From assembly GCF_022170785.1 (NCBI RefSeq), contig NZ_CP081870.1, positions 1,414,001 to 1,478,000 on the forward strand: a DNA stretch of 64,000 nucleotides. Reading direction: 5' to 3'. Positions 54,736-59,101 of the stretch are shown here, piece after piece. The notes under the pieces were generated by a model, which was not told the origin of the DNA, did not search any database, and worked only from the letters and a program-made list of their open reading frames with translations. How positions within the stretch are numbered: position 1 is the first letter of the stretch; every line of letters begins with the position of its first letter. The position numbers and the translations under genes were made by a program. Source of the stretch: Rossellomorea marisflavi. Its GTDB lineage: Bacteria > Bacillota > Bacilli > Bacillales > Bacillaceae_B.

Positions 54736-54804
54736 TTATAGAAGGCTGATGATCCAGCCGATTACAACGATTGCCCCGATGACCATTAAGATCGTGCGTA
54801 CCAT
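54736..54804 (-). CDS. Very small hydrophobic membrane protein (22 residues)
   Basis: 22 codons: MVRTILMVIGAIVVIGWI then ISLL, a single membrane helix with one Arg near the N-terminus. The ribosome site AGAGGTG is 7 bases before the ATG, and a proper terminator follows 11 bases after the stop, so the stretch has every mark of a gene despite its size. Short conserved membrane peptides of this look occur in Bacillales; the function is unknown. It lies between the universal stress gene and the bmr leader. Confidence 0.65.
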   Translation of the reverse strand: MVRTILMVIGAIVVIGWIISLL

Positions 54805-54911
54805 GGATGTTCACCTCTTCATATGTGTTTTATCATTTCGCTTACCGTTAAGATACCCCAACGTGTACAAATGAAACATAAAGGATACATCAAATAAGAA
54901 CAAAAATAATA

Positions 54912-54945
54912 TTGACATTATTCTGAAAATAATGTAGGGTATAGT
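54912..54945 (+). promoter_or_regulatory. Promoter with internal palindrome, bmrCD leader
   Basis: TTGACA (54912-54917) is followed by a perfect inverted repeat, ACATTATT-CTGAA-AATAATGT (54915-54935), then GGGTATAGT. A -10 at TAGGGT gives 17-base spacing and one at TATAGT gives 22. The palindrome lies between the boxes, a position suited to a repressor or a spacer-distorting activator. Confidence 0.6.
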
Positions 54946-55004
54946 AAGATTTAAAATGAAGAGTTTCTGTCTATGAAGACTGAACTGAGAAGGGAGTGGC
55001 TGTG

Positions 55005-55070
55005 ATGAAGAAGGTTATGATCGATTCCGCTATGAACAAGAATAAGCGATCTTCATCACATATCTGCTGA
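55005..55070 (+). CDS. Leader peptide of the bmrCD operon
   Basis: 21 codons starting MKKVMIDSAMNKNKR and ending in Ser-Ser-Ser-His-Ile-Cys. AAGGGAGT lies about 7-9 bases before the ATG. It is followed by two intrinsic terminators before bmrC. In B. subtilis, bmrCD is controlled by translation of a leader peptide (BmrB) that senses ribosome-targeting antibiotics through transcription attenuation; this ORF holds the same position although its sequence and length differ from my memory of BmrB. A shorter frame of 10 codons (54973-55005) overlaps its start codon. Confidence 0.6.
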   Translation: MKKVMIDSAMNKNKRSSSHIC

Positions 55071-55094
55071 TCCCGTTTTCATAAATGAGTGAGG

Positions 55095-55127
55095 GCACAG
55101 GTGATGGTAGAACACCTGTGCTTTTTT
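55095..55127 (+). terminator. Leader terminator 1 (candidate attenuator)
   Basis: GCACAGGTG-ATGGTAGAA-CACCTGTGC followed by TTTTTT, 24 bases after the leader stop codon. CATCAC within the leader ORF (55054-55059) can pair with GTGATG (55101-55106) at the top of this hairpin. Confidence 0.88.
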
Positions 55128-55134
55128 GTCCCCG

Positions 55135-55180
55135 GATGGACGACTAAAAGGCGCATCGCCTTTGGTCGTCCATCTTTTTG
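55135..55180 (+). terminator. Leader terminator 2
   Basis: GATGGACGAC ... GTCGTCCATC outer arms with an inner AAAGGCG-CAT-CGCCTTT hairpin, then TTTTTG. It is a second strong terminator in series, 8 bases after the first. Confidence 0.88.
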
Positions 55181-55238
55181 TTGTTTTCAGGGTATCCCTG
55201 TGACATAGAATCACATCTTGATAAAGGAGGAATTTTTT

Positions 55239-55295
55239 ATGATTCACGATCACCAATCGGTAGTCCCATCCCTTACGGAGACCGAAGGAGGCTAG
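55239..55295 (+). CDS. Second mini-ORF before bmrC
   Basis: 18 codons, MIHDHQSVVPSLTETEGG, with an ideal ribosome site AAAGGAGG 8 bases upstream. It ends 33 bases before the bmrC ATG. It may only aid ribosome loading, or be a second sensor peptide; no family is known. Just upstream is TGTGA-N7-TCACA (55199-55215), a small dyad. Confidence 0.4.
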   Translation: MIHDHQSVVPSLTETEGG

Positions 55296-55328
55296 TTAGG
55301 GACCAAAAGCAAGAATGGAGGCAGGAGC

Positions 55329-57086
55329 ATGTTCATCATTTTTAAGAAATTATCATGGTTTTTCATAGAAAACTGGAAGAGATATACCGTTGCCATCATT
55401 TTATTGACCATAGTCGGCATTTTGGATGTGGTCCCGCCGAAGCTGGTGGGTGACGCCATCGATGAAATCCAGGTCGGCTCACTCACGAAGGAAGCAATCG
55501 TGCATTATCTGTTGCTGTTGACAGGCACCACGGTCGTTTCGTATGGCATGACCTATATTTGGATGTATCAGCTGTTCGGGGGAGCGTTCCTTGTTGAACG
55601 GAAGCTCCGTTCACGCTTTGTCGGTCATCTTATGAAGATGACGCCCACTTTCTTCGAAAAGAATCGTACAGGGGATCTCATGGCCAGGGCTACGAACGAT
55701 CTTCAGGCCATTTCGGTCACGGCAGGCTTCGGGGTGCTGACGCTCATCGACTCAAGTATTTTCATGCTGACGATCCTTTTTACGATGGGCTTCCTCGTCA
55801 GCTGGAAATTGACACTGGCGGCTATCTTACCCCTTCCATTGATGGCCCTCCTTATGAAGATCTACGGGGCAAGGATCCATGCGCGCTTCACGGAAGCACA
55901 GGATGCTTTCGGGGAGCTGAATGATAAAGTCCTGGAGTCGGTCTCAGGGGTCCGTGTCATCAGGGCCTATGTGCAGGAGAGGGCAGATGAGAATCGATTC
56001 TCCGATATGACAGAGGATGTGTACAGCAAGAACATCGCCGTAGCGAGAATCGATTCATTGTTCGATCCCACCATCAAAGTGCTGGTGGGGCTGAGTTATC
56101 TGATCGGGCTAGGGTACGGTGCGTACCTTGTATTCCATCAGTCCATCACTCTCGGTCAGCTTGTCTCCTTCAATGTCTACCTCGGAATGTTGATCTGGCC
56201 GATGTTTGCCATAGGTGAACTCATCAATATCATGCAGAGGGGGAACGCTTCACTCGATCGTGTTCAGGAAACCCTTGCCTATGAGCAGGATGTGAAAGAC
56301 GAAGATATCCGAGAAACGGTTCCTGAACCGGATGGGATCGAATTCCATCAATTATCATTCCGCTATCCATCCTCTGAAGGAATGAATCTCAAAGATGTGG
56401 ATGTAAGGGTGCCTAAAGGGGCCACGCTTGGTCTAGTAGGTAAAACGGGGAGTGGAAAGACGACGTTCATCAAACAGATCTTACGGGAGTATCCGCTAGG
56501 AGAAGGGACTTTGGAGATCGGTGGTATCCCGATCCAACAGCTGCCGATGGACCGTGTCAGGGAATGGATCGGGTATGTTCCTCAGGATCATATCCTCTTC
56601 TCCAAGACGGTGAAAGAAAACATCCTTTATGGAAAAGAAGGAGCAACAGATGAAGAGCTTGAAAGAGCGATAATCCAAGCAGATTTCATGAAGGATCTCA
56701 GCACCCTTCCCCAAGGACTCGAGACGATTGTCGGTGAAAAGGGCGTGGCGCTCTCAGGAGGACAGAAACAGAGGATTTCCATTGCAAGGGCTCTGATCAA
56801 GGACCCTGACATCCTCCTACTCGATGATGCGCTATCGGCGGTGGATGCAAAGACGGAAGCTACCATCATACGGAATCTCAGGAATGAAAGGACCGGGAAG
56901 ACCACCATTTTGGCAACCCACCGTATTTCCGCCGTTGAGGAAGCAGATTGGATCCTGGTCTTTGATGGAGGAAAAGTCATCGAGGAGGGCACGCATTCGG
57001 ATCTTCTCACTACAAAAGGATGGTATAGACAGCAATATGAGCGTCAGCAGGCTGCAGATCCTGCACGGAAGGAGGTGGGGGCATGA
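55329..57086 (+). CDS. bmrC: Multidrug ABC exporter half-transporter BmrC
   Basis: 585 residues, the same length as B. subtilis BmrC (YheI). The six-helix exporter domain (about residues 1-320) with GDLMARATNDLQAIS is followed by the ATPase: Walker A GKTGSGKTT (about 375), Q-loop GYVPQDHILFSKTVKENILYG, signature LSGGQKQRISIARAL, and Walker B ILLLDDALSAVDAKTE. Asp replaces the catalytic Glu after Walker B, as expected for the degenerate-site half of a heterodimeric exporter. It overlaps bmrD by 4 bases. It exports drugs and is probably induced through the upstream leader. Confidence 0.9.
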   Translation: MFIIFKKLSWFFIENWKRYTVAIILLTIVGILDVVPPKLVGDAIDEIQVGSLTKEAIVHYLLLLTGTTVVSYGMTYIWMYQLFGGAFLVERKLRSRFVGHLMKMTPTFFEKNRTGDLMARATNDLQAISVTAGFGVLTLIDSSIFMLTILFTMGFLVSWKLTLAAILPLPLMALLMKIYGARIHARFTEAQDAFGELNDKVLESVSGVRVIRAYVQERADENRFSDMTEDVYSKNIAVARIDSLFDPTIKVLVGLSYLIGLGYGAYLVFHQSITLGQLVSFNVYLGMLIWPMFAIGELINIMQRGNASLDRVQETLAYEQDVKDEDIRETVPEPDGIEFHQLSFRYPSSEGMNLKDVDVRVPKGATLGLVGKTGSGKTTFIKQILREYPLGEGTLEIGGIPIQQLPMDRVREWIGYVPQDHILFSKTVKENILYGKEGATDEELERAIIQADFMKDLSTLPQGLETIVGEKGVALSGGQKQRISIARALIKDPDILLLDDALSAVDAKTEATIIRNLRNERTGKTTILATHRISAVEEADWILVFDGGKVIEEGTHSDLLTTKGWYRQQYERQQAADPARKEVGA

Positions 57087-59101
57087 GCGTAGGAAAACGA
57101 TTGGTTAAGTATGCCCTTTTATATAAAAGAATGATCATTGCGGCCCTTCTCATGCTCACTGTTTCAGTAGGAGCAGAGCTAGCGGGTCCTTTCATCGCCA
57201 AGAAGATGATCGATGACCATATACTTGGAATTGAAGACCGGTGGGTAGAAACCGATAAGGGGGAAGATGCTGTAGCCTATAAAGGCAAATGGTATACCCG
57301 TGAAGAATATCGGTCTGATGGAGAAATCGGAGGGAATGAGGTAAGGGTCTTCCAGGTCGGAAGGTCTTTCTACTTCATCCCGGGAGATGTCCCGAGTGAT
57401 GGGGAACGCTCAATTACGGACGGGAAGCTTTCCATCCGTAAGAATGGGGAAACATCCTTGTATGAGGCTGAAAAATTATCCGGGTCCGAACTGTTGGCTT
57501 TTTATCAGCCGGAAATTCCAAGGATCATCAAACTGATTGCCTTTTATTTCGGATTGCTGCTGTTTGCATCATTTTTCCAATACGGACAGCACTTCTATCT
57601 TCAAAAGGCGGCAAACAGGGTCATTCAGAAGATGAGGAATGACGTTTTTAACCATATTCAGCGTTTGCCCATCCAGTACTTCGATAATCTGCCCGCCGGG
57701 AAGGTCGTGGCACGGATTACGAATGATACGGAGGCGATCAGGAACCTGTATGTGACGGTTTTGTCGACCTTCTTCACCAGTGCCATTTACATTGTCGGCA
57801 TTTATATCGCCCTTTTCATTCTGGATCCGTCCTTGGCTTCAATCTGTCTCATCCTCATGCCTATTCTTGTCCTGTGGACTTTCCTTTATAGAAGATACGC
57901 CTCTTCCTATAATAAAGTGATCAGAAGCAAGGTAAGTGAGATCAATGCGGTCATCAACGAATCAATCCAGGGAATGCCGATCATCCAGGCTTTCCGGAGG
58001 GAAAAGAAAACAAAAGAGGAATTCGAAGAACTGAATGAGATGCACTACCGTTATCAAAACAAGCTACTCAATTTGAATTCCCTTACGTCCCACAATCTTT
58101 CGGGAGTACTGAGGAACATTGTGTTCGTCGCATTCATTTGGCATTTCGGGGGTGGATCACTCGAAGTGGGATCGGTGATTTCACTTGGTGTCCTCTATGC
58201 GTTTGTCGATTATATCAATCGGCTTTTCCAACCTATCACAGGGATTGTCAATCAGCTGTCCAACCTGGAGCAGGCCCTGGTCGCAGGGGAGCGGGTCTTC
58301 AAGCTCCTCGAAGAGAAAGGGACGGACGTGGAAGATGAACGGATGGAGCGCTACCGGGGGGATGTGAGCTTCAAGCATGTGTCATTCGGGTACAAGAAGG
58401 ATGACTATGTGCTGAAGGATATCGATTTTTCAGCGACACGCGGGGAGACAGTGGCCCTTGTCGGACATACAGGCTCCGGCAAGAGCTCCATCATGAATCT
58501 GCTATTCAGATTCTACGATGTAGATGAAGGGTGTATCACGATCGATGGAAAGGATATCAGGGAGCTGCCGATTCAAGCAGTCCGTGAGCATATGGGGATC
58601 GTCCTTCAAGATCCATACCTTTTTACAGGGACCATCGCTTCCAATGTCAGTCTGGGCCAAGAAGGGATATCTCGTGAAAAGGTAGAGGCGTCACTCAAGG
58701 CAGTCGGAGCAGAAAAAGCATTTGCAGGTCTTGCGAAAGGGTATGATGAGCCGGTGATCGAGAAAGGGAGCACCCTGTCCTCAGGTCAAAGGCAGCTCAT
58801 TTCATTTGCGCGGGCCCTTGCCTTCGACCCTGCCATCTTGATCCTCGATGAAGCGACATCCAGCATCGATACGGAGACGGAATCGATCATACAGGAAGCG
58901 ATGGAAGTGGTGAAGAAAGGGAGAACCACATTCATCATTGCCCACCGCCTTTCTACTATAAAAAATGCAGATCAGATCCTGGTACTTGATCGCGGGTCCA
59001 TTGCGGAAATGGGGAACCATGACCAACTGATGGAGCGTAAGGGTAAGTATTATCATATGTATCACCTTCAAACCGGCGCAGCCGGGGAGGAGGCAGGATA
59101 A
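57083..59101 (+). CDS. bmrD: Multidrug ABC exporter half-transporter BmrD
   Basis: 672 residues, close to B. subtilis BmrD (YheH). Compared with BmrC it has a ~90-residue extracellular insertion between helices 1 and 2 (about residues 45-140: IEDRWVETDKGEDAVAYKGKW and VRVFQVGRSFYFIPGDVP), typical of BmrD. The ATPase has Walker A GHTGSGKSS (about 464), signature LSSGQRQLISFARALAF and Walker B LILDEATSSIDTETE with the catalytic Glu retained. It pairs with BmrC. Confidence 0.9.
   Translation: MSVGKRLVKYALLYKRMIIAALLMLTVSVGAELAGPFIAKKMIDDHILGIEDRWVETDKGEDAVAYKGKWYTREEYRSDGEIGGNEVRVFQVGRSFYFIPGDVPSDGERSITDGKLSIRKNGETSLYEAEKLSGSELLAFYQPEIPRIIKLIAFYFGLLLFASFFQYGQHFYLQKAANRVIQKMRNDVFNHIQRLPIQYFDNLPAGKVVARITNDTEAIRNLYVTVLSTFFTSAIYIVGIYIALFILDPSLASICLILMPILVLWTFLYRRYASSYNKVIRSKVSEINAVINESIQGMPIIQAFRREKKTKEEFEELNEMHYRYQNKLLNLNSLTSHNLSGVLRNIVFVAFIWHFGGGSLEVGSVISLGVLYAFVDYINRLFQPITGIVNQLSNLEQALVAGERVFKLLEEKGTDVEDERMERYRGDVSFKHVSFGYKKDDYVLKDIDFSATRGETVALVGHTGSGKSSIMNLLFRFYDVDEGCITIDGKDIRELPIQAVREHMGIVLQDPYLFTGTIASNVSLGQEGISREKVEASLKAVGAEKAFAGLAKGYDEPVIEKGSTLSSGQRQLISFARALAFDPAILILDEATSSIDTETESIIQEAMEVVKKGRTTFIIAHRLSTIKNADQILVLDRGSIAEMGNHDQLMERKGKYYHMYHLQTGAAGEEAG

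Follow-up and report, generated by a model that had tools for sequence, protein, structure and literature searches.

The 64,000-nt stretch of DNA that was analysed, referred to as the window throughout, belongs to a Rossellomorea marisflavi-like genome and carries bmrC (yheI) and bmrD (yheH), the genes for the two halves of an ABC exporter, downstream of a leader in which a TTGACA-17-TAGGGT promoter, a first small ORF (ORF1), two intrinsic terminators (T1 and T2) and a second small ORF (ORF2) follow one another from 5' to 3' before bmrC (Table 1). The search for relatives returned a locus, L001, whose BmrC is 98% identical to that of the window. A gene of the universal stress protein family (PF00582, 54096-54623, minus strand) adjoins the leader, and a small ORF (MVRTILMVIGAIVVIGWIISLL, 54736-54804, minus strand) with the Shine-Dalgarno (SD) sequence GAGGTG is divergent from it; its product looks like a small membrane peptide, and by eye it is followed by a terminator-like hairpin with a T-run. 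At the gathering score of Rfam the leader region of the window matched no RNA family, the weak match of RF00236 to T2 scoring 19.9 bits against 45, and no Rfam match was found in the leaders of five relatives.

Table 1. Features of the bmrCD leader and operon (positions in the window)
Feature	Position	Strand	Basis or remark
Promoter, TTGACA (54912-54917), 17 nt, TAGGGT (54935-54940)	54912..54940	+	register shared with relatives
ORF1 Shine-Dalgarno region (AGAAGGGAGTGG)	54988..54999	+	moderate SD AAGGGAG; sequence
Segment 1, ORF1 start region	55001..55011	+	anti-antiterminator partner of segment 2, 11 bp
ORF1, 21-aa leader peptide MKKVMIDSAMNKNKRSSSHIC	55005..55070	+	sequence
Segment 2, end of ORF1	55050..55060	+	alternative partners: segment 1 or segment 3
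T1, intrinsic terminator 1	55095..55127	+	arms 55095-55103 and 55113-55121 plus U-tract; -18.7 kcal/mol, z -3.96
Segment 3, GTGATGG, T1 5' arm and loop	55101..55107	+	antiterminator partner of 55053-55059
T2, intrinsic terminator 2	55134..55179	+	hairpin about 55134-55174 plus U-tract; -29.6 kcal/mol, z -7.05
ORF2 Shine-Dalgarno (AAAGGAGG)	55223..55230	+	sequence
ORF2, 18 aa MIHDHQSVVPSLTETEGG, end TETEGG-TAG	55239..55295	+	strict motif conserved among leaders
SD-like GGAG within ORF2, 12 nt 5' of stop	55277..55280	+	anti-SD scan
bmrC (yheI), ABC exporter half	55329..57086	+	B. subtilis YheI structures (PDB 8t1p_C / 7m33_C), E about 1e-260
bmrD (yheH), ABC exporter half	57083..59101	+	ABC-exporter domains; name from position beside bmrC

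Among 17 named relatives, 15 have TTGACA-17-TATGGT, L001 has the TTGACA-17-TAGGGT of the window and L013 has neither. A built-in consensus scan gave no support, as it reported no terminator and this promoter was absent from its output; in our reading, T1 was missed because its loop of 9 exceeds the limit of 8, T2 because its stem is bulged, and the promoter because its -10 element matches at three of six positions and the scan demands four. An inverted repeat across the promoter (ACATTATT-N5-AATAATGT) is missing from every one of the 17 named relatives, even from L001, and was taken as chance.

Relatives of BmrC were collected from the 17 named contigs and from genomes of the genus, the order and the class. 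The order search matched 271 of 397 genomes; 60 stretches (56 from the order search and four from the genus search) were picked for genus spread among the best-scoring matches listed, so that distant relatives are under-represented. bmrC was placed by tblastn in 143 of 151 sequences and from known coordinates in the remaining eight. Of leaders identical over the last 350 nt one was kept, which left 126, grouped by shared 8-mers into 78 clusters; L069, with 214 bases, was excluded as too short. Automatic calling gave an ORF1 with two terminators behind it in 94 of these leaders (56 clusters), which entered a swap test: the energy with which two segments from one leader pair is compared with the energy after one of them is exchanged for those of other clusters. 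A second test covered 105 pairs among 15 leader segments in 79 of the 126 leaders (42 clusters). For the window and two leaders nearly identical to it, L019 and L020, ORF1 was accepted by hand under a looser SD rule; in many relatives GGAGG stands at the ORF1 SD position.

The start of ORF1 (GTGATGAAGA, 55002-55011) is the perfect complement of its end (TCTTCATCAC, 55050-55059), a feature overlooked in the initial annotation, and the same end can pair with the 5' arm of T1 through the helix TCATCAC/GTGATGG. The leader thereby offers the alternatives 1:2 (ORF1 start region with ORF1 end), 2:3 (ORF1 end with T1 5' arm) and 3:4 (T1). T1 and T2 of the window are far more stable than shuffled sequences (Table 1). 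In the window itself, the gain over shuffled sequences is modest both for the 1:2 fold (-18.3 kcal/mol, z -1.96) and for the 2:3 fold (z -1.63). Across the 56 clusters, native pairing exceeded swapped pairing for 1:2 (p = 3.8e-7) and for 2:3 (p = 1.8e-8), and two control pairs, ORF1 start with T1 5' arm (p = 0.69) and ORF1 end with T2 5' side (p = 1.0), showed no native advantage in the same test. The 105-pair test singled out both terminator stems, the ORF1 SD with the ORF1 end (p = 2.1e-10) and the ORF1 end with the T1 5' arm (p = 5.6e-9), the next-ranked pair having an uncorrected p of 0.017. The helices covary, as in CGTGACCTG/CAGGTCACG, CGTAACCTG/CAGGTTACG and ACATGACC/GGTTATGT. Helix length by itself separates native from swapped leaders weakly: an antiterminator helix of at least 7 bp is present in 36 of 56 clusters vs 0.37 of swaps, a 1:2 helix of at least 7 bp in 37 of 56 vs 0.56 of swaps, and in nine of the 56 clusters no uninterrupted antiterminator helix reaches 6 bp.

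The initial annotation had described a promoter, a 21-codon ORF1, two terminators in series and an 18-codon ORF2 before bmrC, all of which were found at or near the places given, and had proposed attenuation by a leader ORF in which CATCAC (55054-55059) pairs with GTGATG (55101-55106) as a weak antiterminator. Both motifs are present, the comparative tests favour the attenuation scheme through 1:2 as well as 2:3, and the antiterminator gains support from both the native-vs-swapped result and the covarying helices. An ORF with a ribosome-binding site (RBS) lies 5' of an intrinsic terminator, the antiterminator (2:3) is exclusive with that terminator (T1), and the anti-antiterminator (1:2) overlaps the leader ORF. 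These features support the view that the bmrCD leader is a putative trp-like ribosome-mediated attenuator. The element shared by the ORF1 sequences is, by eye, read in different frames (VTCP, RDLS, RNLS) and is thus kept as RNA; stop codons, weighted over 56 clusters, are TAA (36), TAG (11) and TGA (9). Since the ORF1 peptide is variable and the element lies in different frames, we expect that slowed initiation or early elongation would be sensed, rather than one particular peptide.

The published work on this operon concerns B. subtilis, represented here by L155, whose BmrC is identical to 8t1p_C over 584 residues. According to the excerpts of PMC4191407, bmrCD is induced by lincomycin, erythromycin and chloramphenicol, read-through needs translation of the leader, and the leader is assigned to a 53-aa frame with a GTG start that contains the terminator. 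In L155, a 53-aa frame that begins with GTG stops 119 bp short of bmrC, in exact agreement with the published description of bmrB. In 12 genomes of the B. subtilis group (L154-L165), the BmrB frame passes through the terminator in five and keeps its GTG in seven, counts that were read at a fixed offset and could be misled by indels. In another frame, an ATG ORF of 23 codons preceded by GGAGG (MPRNLRVYQTVSYWRGKPFVLFS in L155) is intact in all 12, and L155 shows complementarities of -20.7 kcal/mol for 1:2 and -14.7 kcal/mol for 2:3 (hand-set segments, without control). Unlike the BmrB frame, the ORF1 of the window ends before T1. In the excerpted data of PMC4191407, the start mutant also carried changes in alternative start codons and in RBSs, and BmrB-GFP could be detected when encoded on a plasmid but not when encoded on the chromosome; thus the published data do not separate the two frames. 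We infer that the SD-led 23-codon ORF1, and not the 53-aa BmrB frame, is probably the working leader in B. subtilis. The initial annotation had remarked that the ORF1 peptide does not resemble BmrB; the dissimilarity is explained by drift of the ORF1 peptide, whose RNA element is preserved, and by the poor conservation of the annotated BmrB frame itself.

At least two terminator-like hairpins were counted in 114 of the 126 leaders, a count made without shuffle control. The same excerpts of PMC4191407 report that C-to-G changes at nt 136 and 140 of annotated bmrB abolished regulation, and in L155 these two positions are C residues in the 3' arm of the T2 equivalent. The regulated terminator of B. 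subtilis is therefore the T2 equivalent, and an account centred on T1 is incomplete there. Since, moreover, the L155 hairpin at the T1 position is by eye without a U-run, T2 responds in B. subtilis by a route that we cannot extend to the other leaders. A relay in which the freed 3' arm of T1 pairs with the 5' side of T2 was considered and set aside as a general device, as native pairing was not above swapped (p = 0.995), nor above pairing with 141 unrelated control terminators (mean z -0.08, p = 0.34). Because both segments are conserved in sequence, a fixed pairing of this sort is hard to detect by swapping; the comparison with unrelated terminators is free of that weakness. For B. subtilis alone, where the T1-arm and T2-arm duplex of L155 reaches -12.7 kcal/mol (without control), a local T1-to-T2 relay may exist. 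As a separate observation, a T2 sequence like GCATATCGC...GCGGTATGC is by eye kept across genera (e.g. L055, L062, L064, L073, L098), a conservation exceeding the needs of a plain terminator.

ORF2 was defined strictly as an SD-preceded mini-ORF of 12-30 codons with the end [EDN][SGD]G-stop, 18-85 nt before the gene. This motif was found in 97 of 126 bmrC leaders (52 of 78 clusters) vs one of 191 control ORFs, the controls being ORFs of 150 aa or longer taken mechanically from the loci and the window rather than annotated genes, and the single control match is the ORF2 of L131 under a different bmrC start call. ORF2 is absent from 26 clusters under the strict rule and from 20 of the 78 under a loose one. 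As DNA, the motif occurs once in each of 30 of the 36 genus genomes, always beside bmrC (reversed pattern, 8 places), and was found at 17 places in 16 of 150 order genomes (reversed pattern, 8), of which 11 are beside bmrC, one (G111) is elsewhere and five are in genomes without a listed bmrC position. No ORF2-like ORF was seen 5' of two paralogous ABC-exporter genes of the window's own genome. All 12 B. subtilis-group genomes have an ORF2 ending in ...EGG-TGA (...KIEGG* in B. subtilis), with a weak SD at its start, and an ORF2-type ending was present in 28 of 28 further genus loci (L151-L178, from 43 genomes with a match; L165 and L131 are the same genome). The doubled terminator and second mini-ORF had been regarded as a variant architecture; this part of the initial annotation does not stand, as the layout is common among the compared leaders and ORF2 precedes bmrC in B. 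subtilis as well.

The C-terminus of ORF2 is (E/D)-(S/G)-Gly-stop written with synonymous codons. Weighted over the 52 clusters, the last residue is Gly with all four codons in use, position -2 is Ser (26, from both AGY and TCN), Gly (22) or Asp (4), and position -3 is Glu (37) or Asp (14). The search rule in part dictates positions -3 to -1, but has no bearing on positions -6 to -4, the stop codon or the synonymous variety. The stop is TAG in 44, TAA in five and TGA in three weighted clusters, and conservation from -7 to -17 is weak (0.5-1.4 bits). A length of 18 residues is found in 33.4 of the 52 weighted clusters, and the median distance from the ORF2 stop to the bmrC start is 35 nt (5-95% range 27-45 nt). 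Where position -5 is Glu, GAG encodes it throughout (21.0 of 21.0 weighted clusters), vs 2110 GAA and 1101 GAG in pooled bmrC. An anti-SD scan aligned on the stop and judged against synonymous recoding, which left aside some positions lying 15-22 and 26-27 nt 5' of it, revealed an SD-like 8-mer whose 3' end lies 11-12 nt upstream of the ORF2 stop (z about -8), and anti-SD affinity is avoided at the stop itself (z +5.5). Conserved residues with synonymous codons, together with the stop-aligned SD, indicate that ORF2 is conserved at the level of the peptide and of the RNA alike. Stop-adjacent conservation and a preferred stop codon are known from the arrest peptides TnaC and SpeFL, as expected for arrest at termination. 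ORF2 resembles them in both respects, its own arrest being putative, and differs by the additional internal SD aligned to the stop; we know of no sequence similarity of ORF2 to either.

The attenuator and ORF2 are separable modules. In L086, L121 and L123, ORF2 occurs without the ORF1/T1/T2 leader, downstream of a conserved 46-aa ORF (MTIH...) that we take to be YrzI-like, and in nine leaders (L063, L130, L100, L141, L143, L139, L144, L148, L134) T2 ends 31-60 nt before bmrC and there is no ORF2. A conserved frameshift from ORF2 into bmrC was considered and excluded, as stop-to-start distances fall in all three frame relations.

We propose that bmrCD is probably under a two-stage control read by ribosomes, transcription attenuation at ORF1 being followed by translation-level control at ORF2. 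The analysis shows the anatomy, the comparative pairing for 1:2, 2:3 and 3:4, the coding conservation of ORF2 and its internal SD-like signal; that antibiotics stall ribosomes at ORF1, that ribosomes pause at the ORF2 stop and which way ORF2 acts are what we infer. When ORF1 is not read, its RBS and start would pair with its end (1:2), so that T1 (3:4) forms and transcription stops; when a ribosome moves normally along ORF1, either 1:2 pairs or the ORF1 end is covered, and T1 would again form. A ribosome held by an antibiotic at the start or early codons of ORF1 would cover segment 1 and leave segment 2 free for the T1 5' arm (2:3), in which case T1 would fail and RNA polymerase would continue. 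That the position of the ribosome decides the fate of T1 is suggested by the anatomy and by the behaviour described for B. subtilis in the excerpts of PMC4191407. This first stage would account for the passage of T1; that of T2 is outside the model. Transcripts past the terminators would carry ORF2 with its (E/D)-(S/G)-Gly-UAG end, whose GGAG would meet the anti-SD once the last sense codon occupies the P site. The ribosome may then pause at the ORF2 stop, or a 30S subunit may be retained there, beside the bmrC start and not on it, and this pause or retention might gate bmrC translation or protect the mRNA. Since no structure or pairing links ORF2 to the bmrC RBS, its effect on bmrC is conjectural.

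A different account of the first stage, in which T1 and T2 are constitutive, ORF1 is decayed or incidental and bmrCD is simply kept low, would suit two strong terminators in series and the fact that no switch was found for T2; however, the native-specific 1:2 and 2:3 pairing in 56 clusters and the induction reported for B. subtilis in the excerpts of PMC4191407 make it the least probable of the alternatives weighed here. For the second stage, the main competitor is that ORF2 is a mere coupling cistron, which opens the bmrC start or delivers 30S subunits by reinitiation without any peptide-specific arrest. The tight stop-to-start spacing and the SD-like signal aligned to the ORF2 stop fit this well, and we regard it as a serious contender, if not the one to be expected; it leaves unexplained the conserved last residues with their synonymous codons and the UAG preference, and no RBS-blocking structure that translation could open was found.

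Two further roles for ORF2 have been considered. Translation attenuation of the ermC type, in which stalling on ORF2 frees a sequestered bmrC RBS, would account for a mini-ORF immediately 5' of bmrC, but is very improbable: neither the 105-pair test nor folding gave support for ORF2 or intercistronic RNA sequestering the bmrC RBS, the region from ORF2 to bmrC (55233-55332) is no more stable than its shuffled versions (z +0.47), the best listed segment pair involving the bmrC RBS has p = 0.14, and no hairpin sequestering that RBS was found. Peptide-level conservation beside bmrC could also reflect a free micropeptide acting in trans, for instance on BmrCD; conservation is concentrated beside the stop, together with the stop-aligned SD, and is weak from -7 to -17, which renders this role unlikely, though a little less so than the ermC type. 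A bolder form of the two-stage control, in which ORF2 is the founder of a new family of termination-arrest peptides, the exporter is gated twice and the published BmrB frame is wrong, is rather doubtful as a whole and is put forward tentatively.

The attenuator is of a known kind, with bmrBCD, vmlR and trp as examples. The B. subtilis bmrBCD operon (Reilman et al. 2014, PMC4191407), as excerpted, shares with the window the operon itself, a leader ORF, an anti-antiterminator, an antiterminator and a terminator; it differs in that the leader was given as the 53-aa frame, whereas our comparison points to the SD-led 23-codon ORF, and the excerpted parts mention neither a second terminator nor ORF2. 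In B. subtilis vmlR, according to the excerpts of PMC9226507, a uORF also lies inside the anti-antiterminator, an antibiotic-held ribosome permits the antiterminator, and a transcription layer is joined to a translation layer, the latter being a proposal in the case of bmrCD. Unlike the bmrCD leader, vmlR has a uORF of three codons and an SD-sequestering hairpin as its second layer (same excerpts), while for bmrCD no such hairpin was found and the proposed second layer is the conserved ORF2. The E. coli trp attenuator, as set out in the excerpts of PMC4191407, likewise chooses among 1:2, 2:3 and 3:4 pairings through a ribosome that translates a leader ORF. The trp signal is amino-acid starvation, in contrast to the presumed antibiotic-slowed initiation or early elongation here, and in the bmrCD leader segment 1 is the RBS and start itself. 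Within open-licence PMC, no paper on ORF2 was evident by title or abstract opening among the matches listed, which is weak evidence of absence. As far as these listings show, what is new is ORF2 with its stop-aligned signature, the generality of the two-terminator, two-ORF layout and the correction of the B. subtilis frame. The bmrCD attenuator emerges as a widely conserved switch whose logic can be defined as 1:2/2:3/3:4, the comparison suggests that the leader peptide of a model organism was apparently assigned to the wrong frame, and a conserved second peptide with a signature at its stop codon is brought to attention; should ORF2 indeed arrest termination, it would add a family of arrest peptides tied to antibiotic efflux.

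Some minor features were also observed. In L048 and L050, a third mini-ORF (MNLLLVYV and MYLLMVFV, respectively) stands close behind ORF2, within the last 80 nt before bmrC. In L097, ORF2 is by eye apparently interrupted relative to that of its relative L108, about 110 nt before bmrC, which suggests a recent loss. Elsewhere in the window lie a T-box leader (RF00230, 10927-11132, 119.6 bits) and a TPP riboswitch (RF00059, 43417-43526, 71.5 bits).
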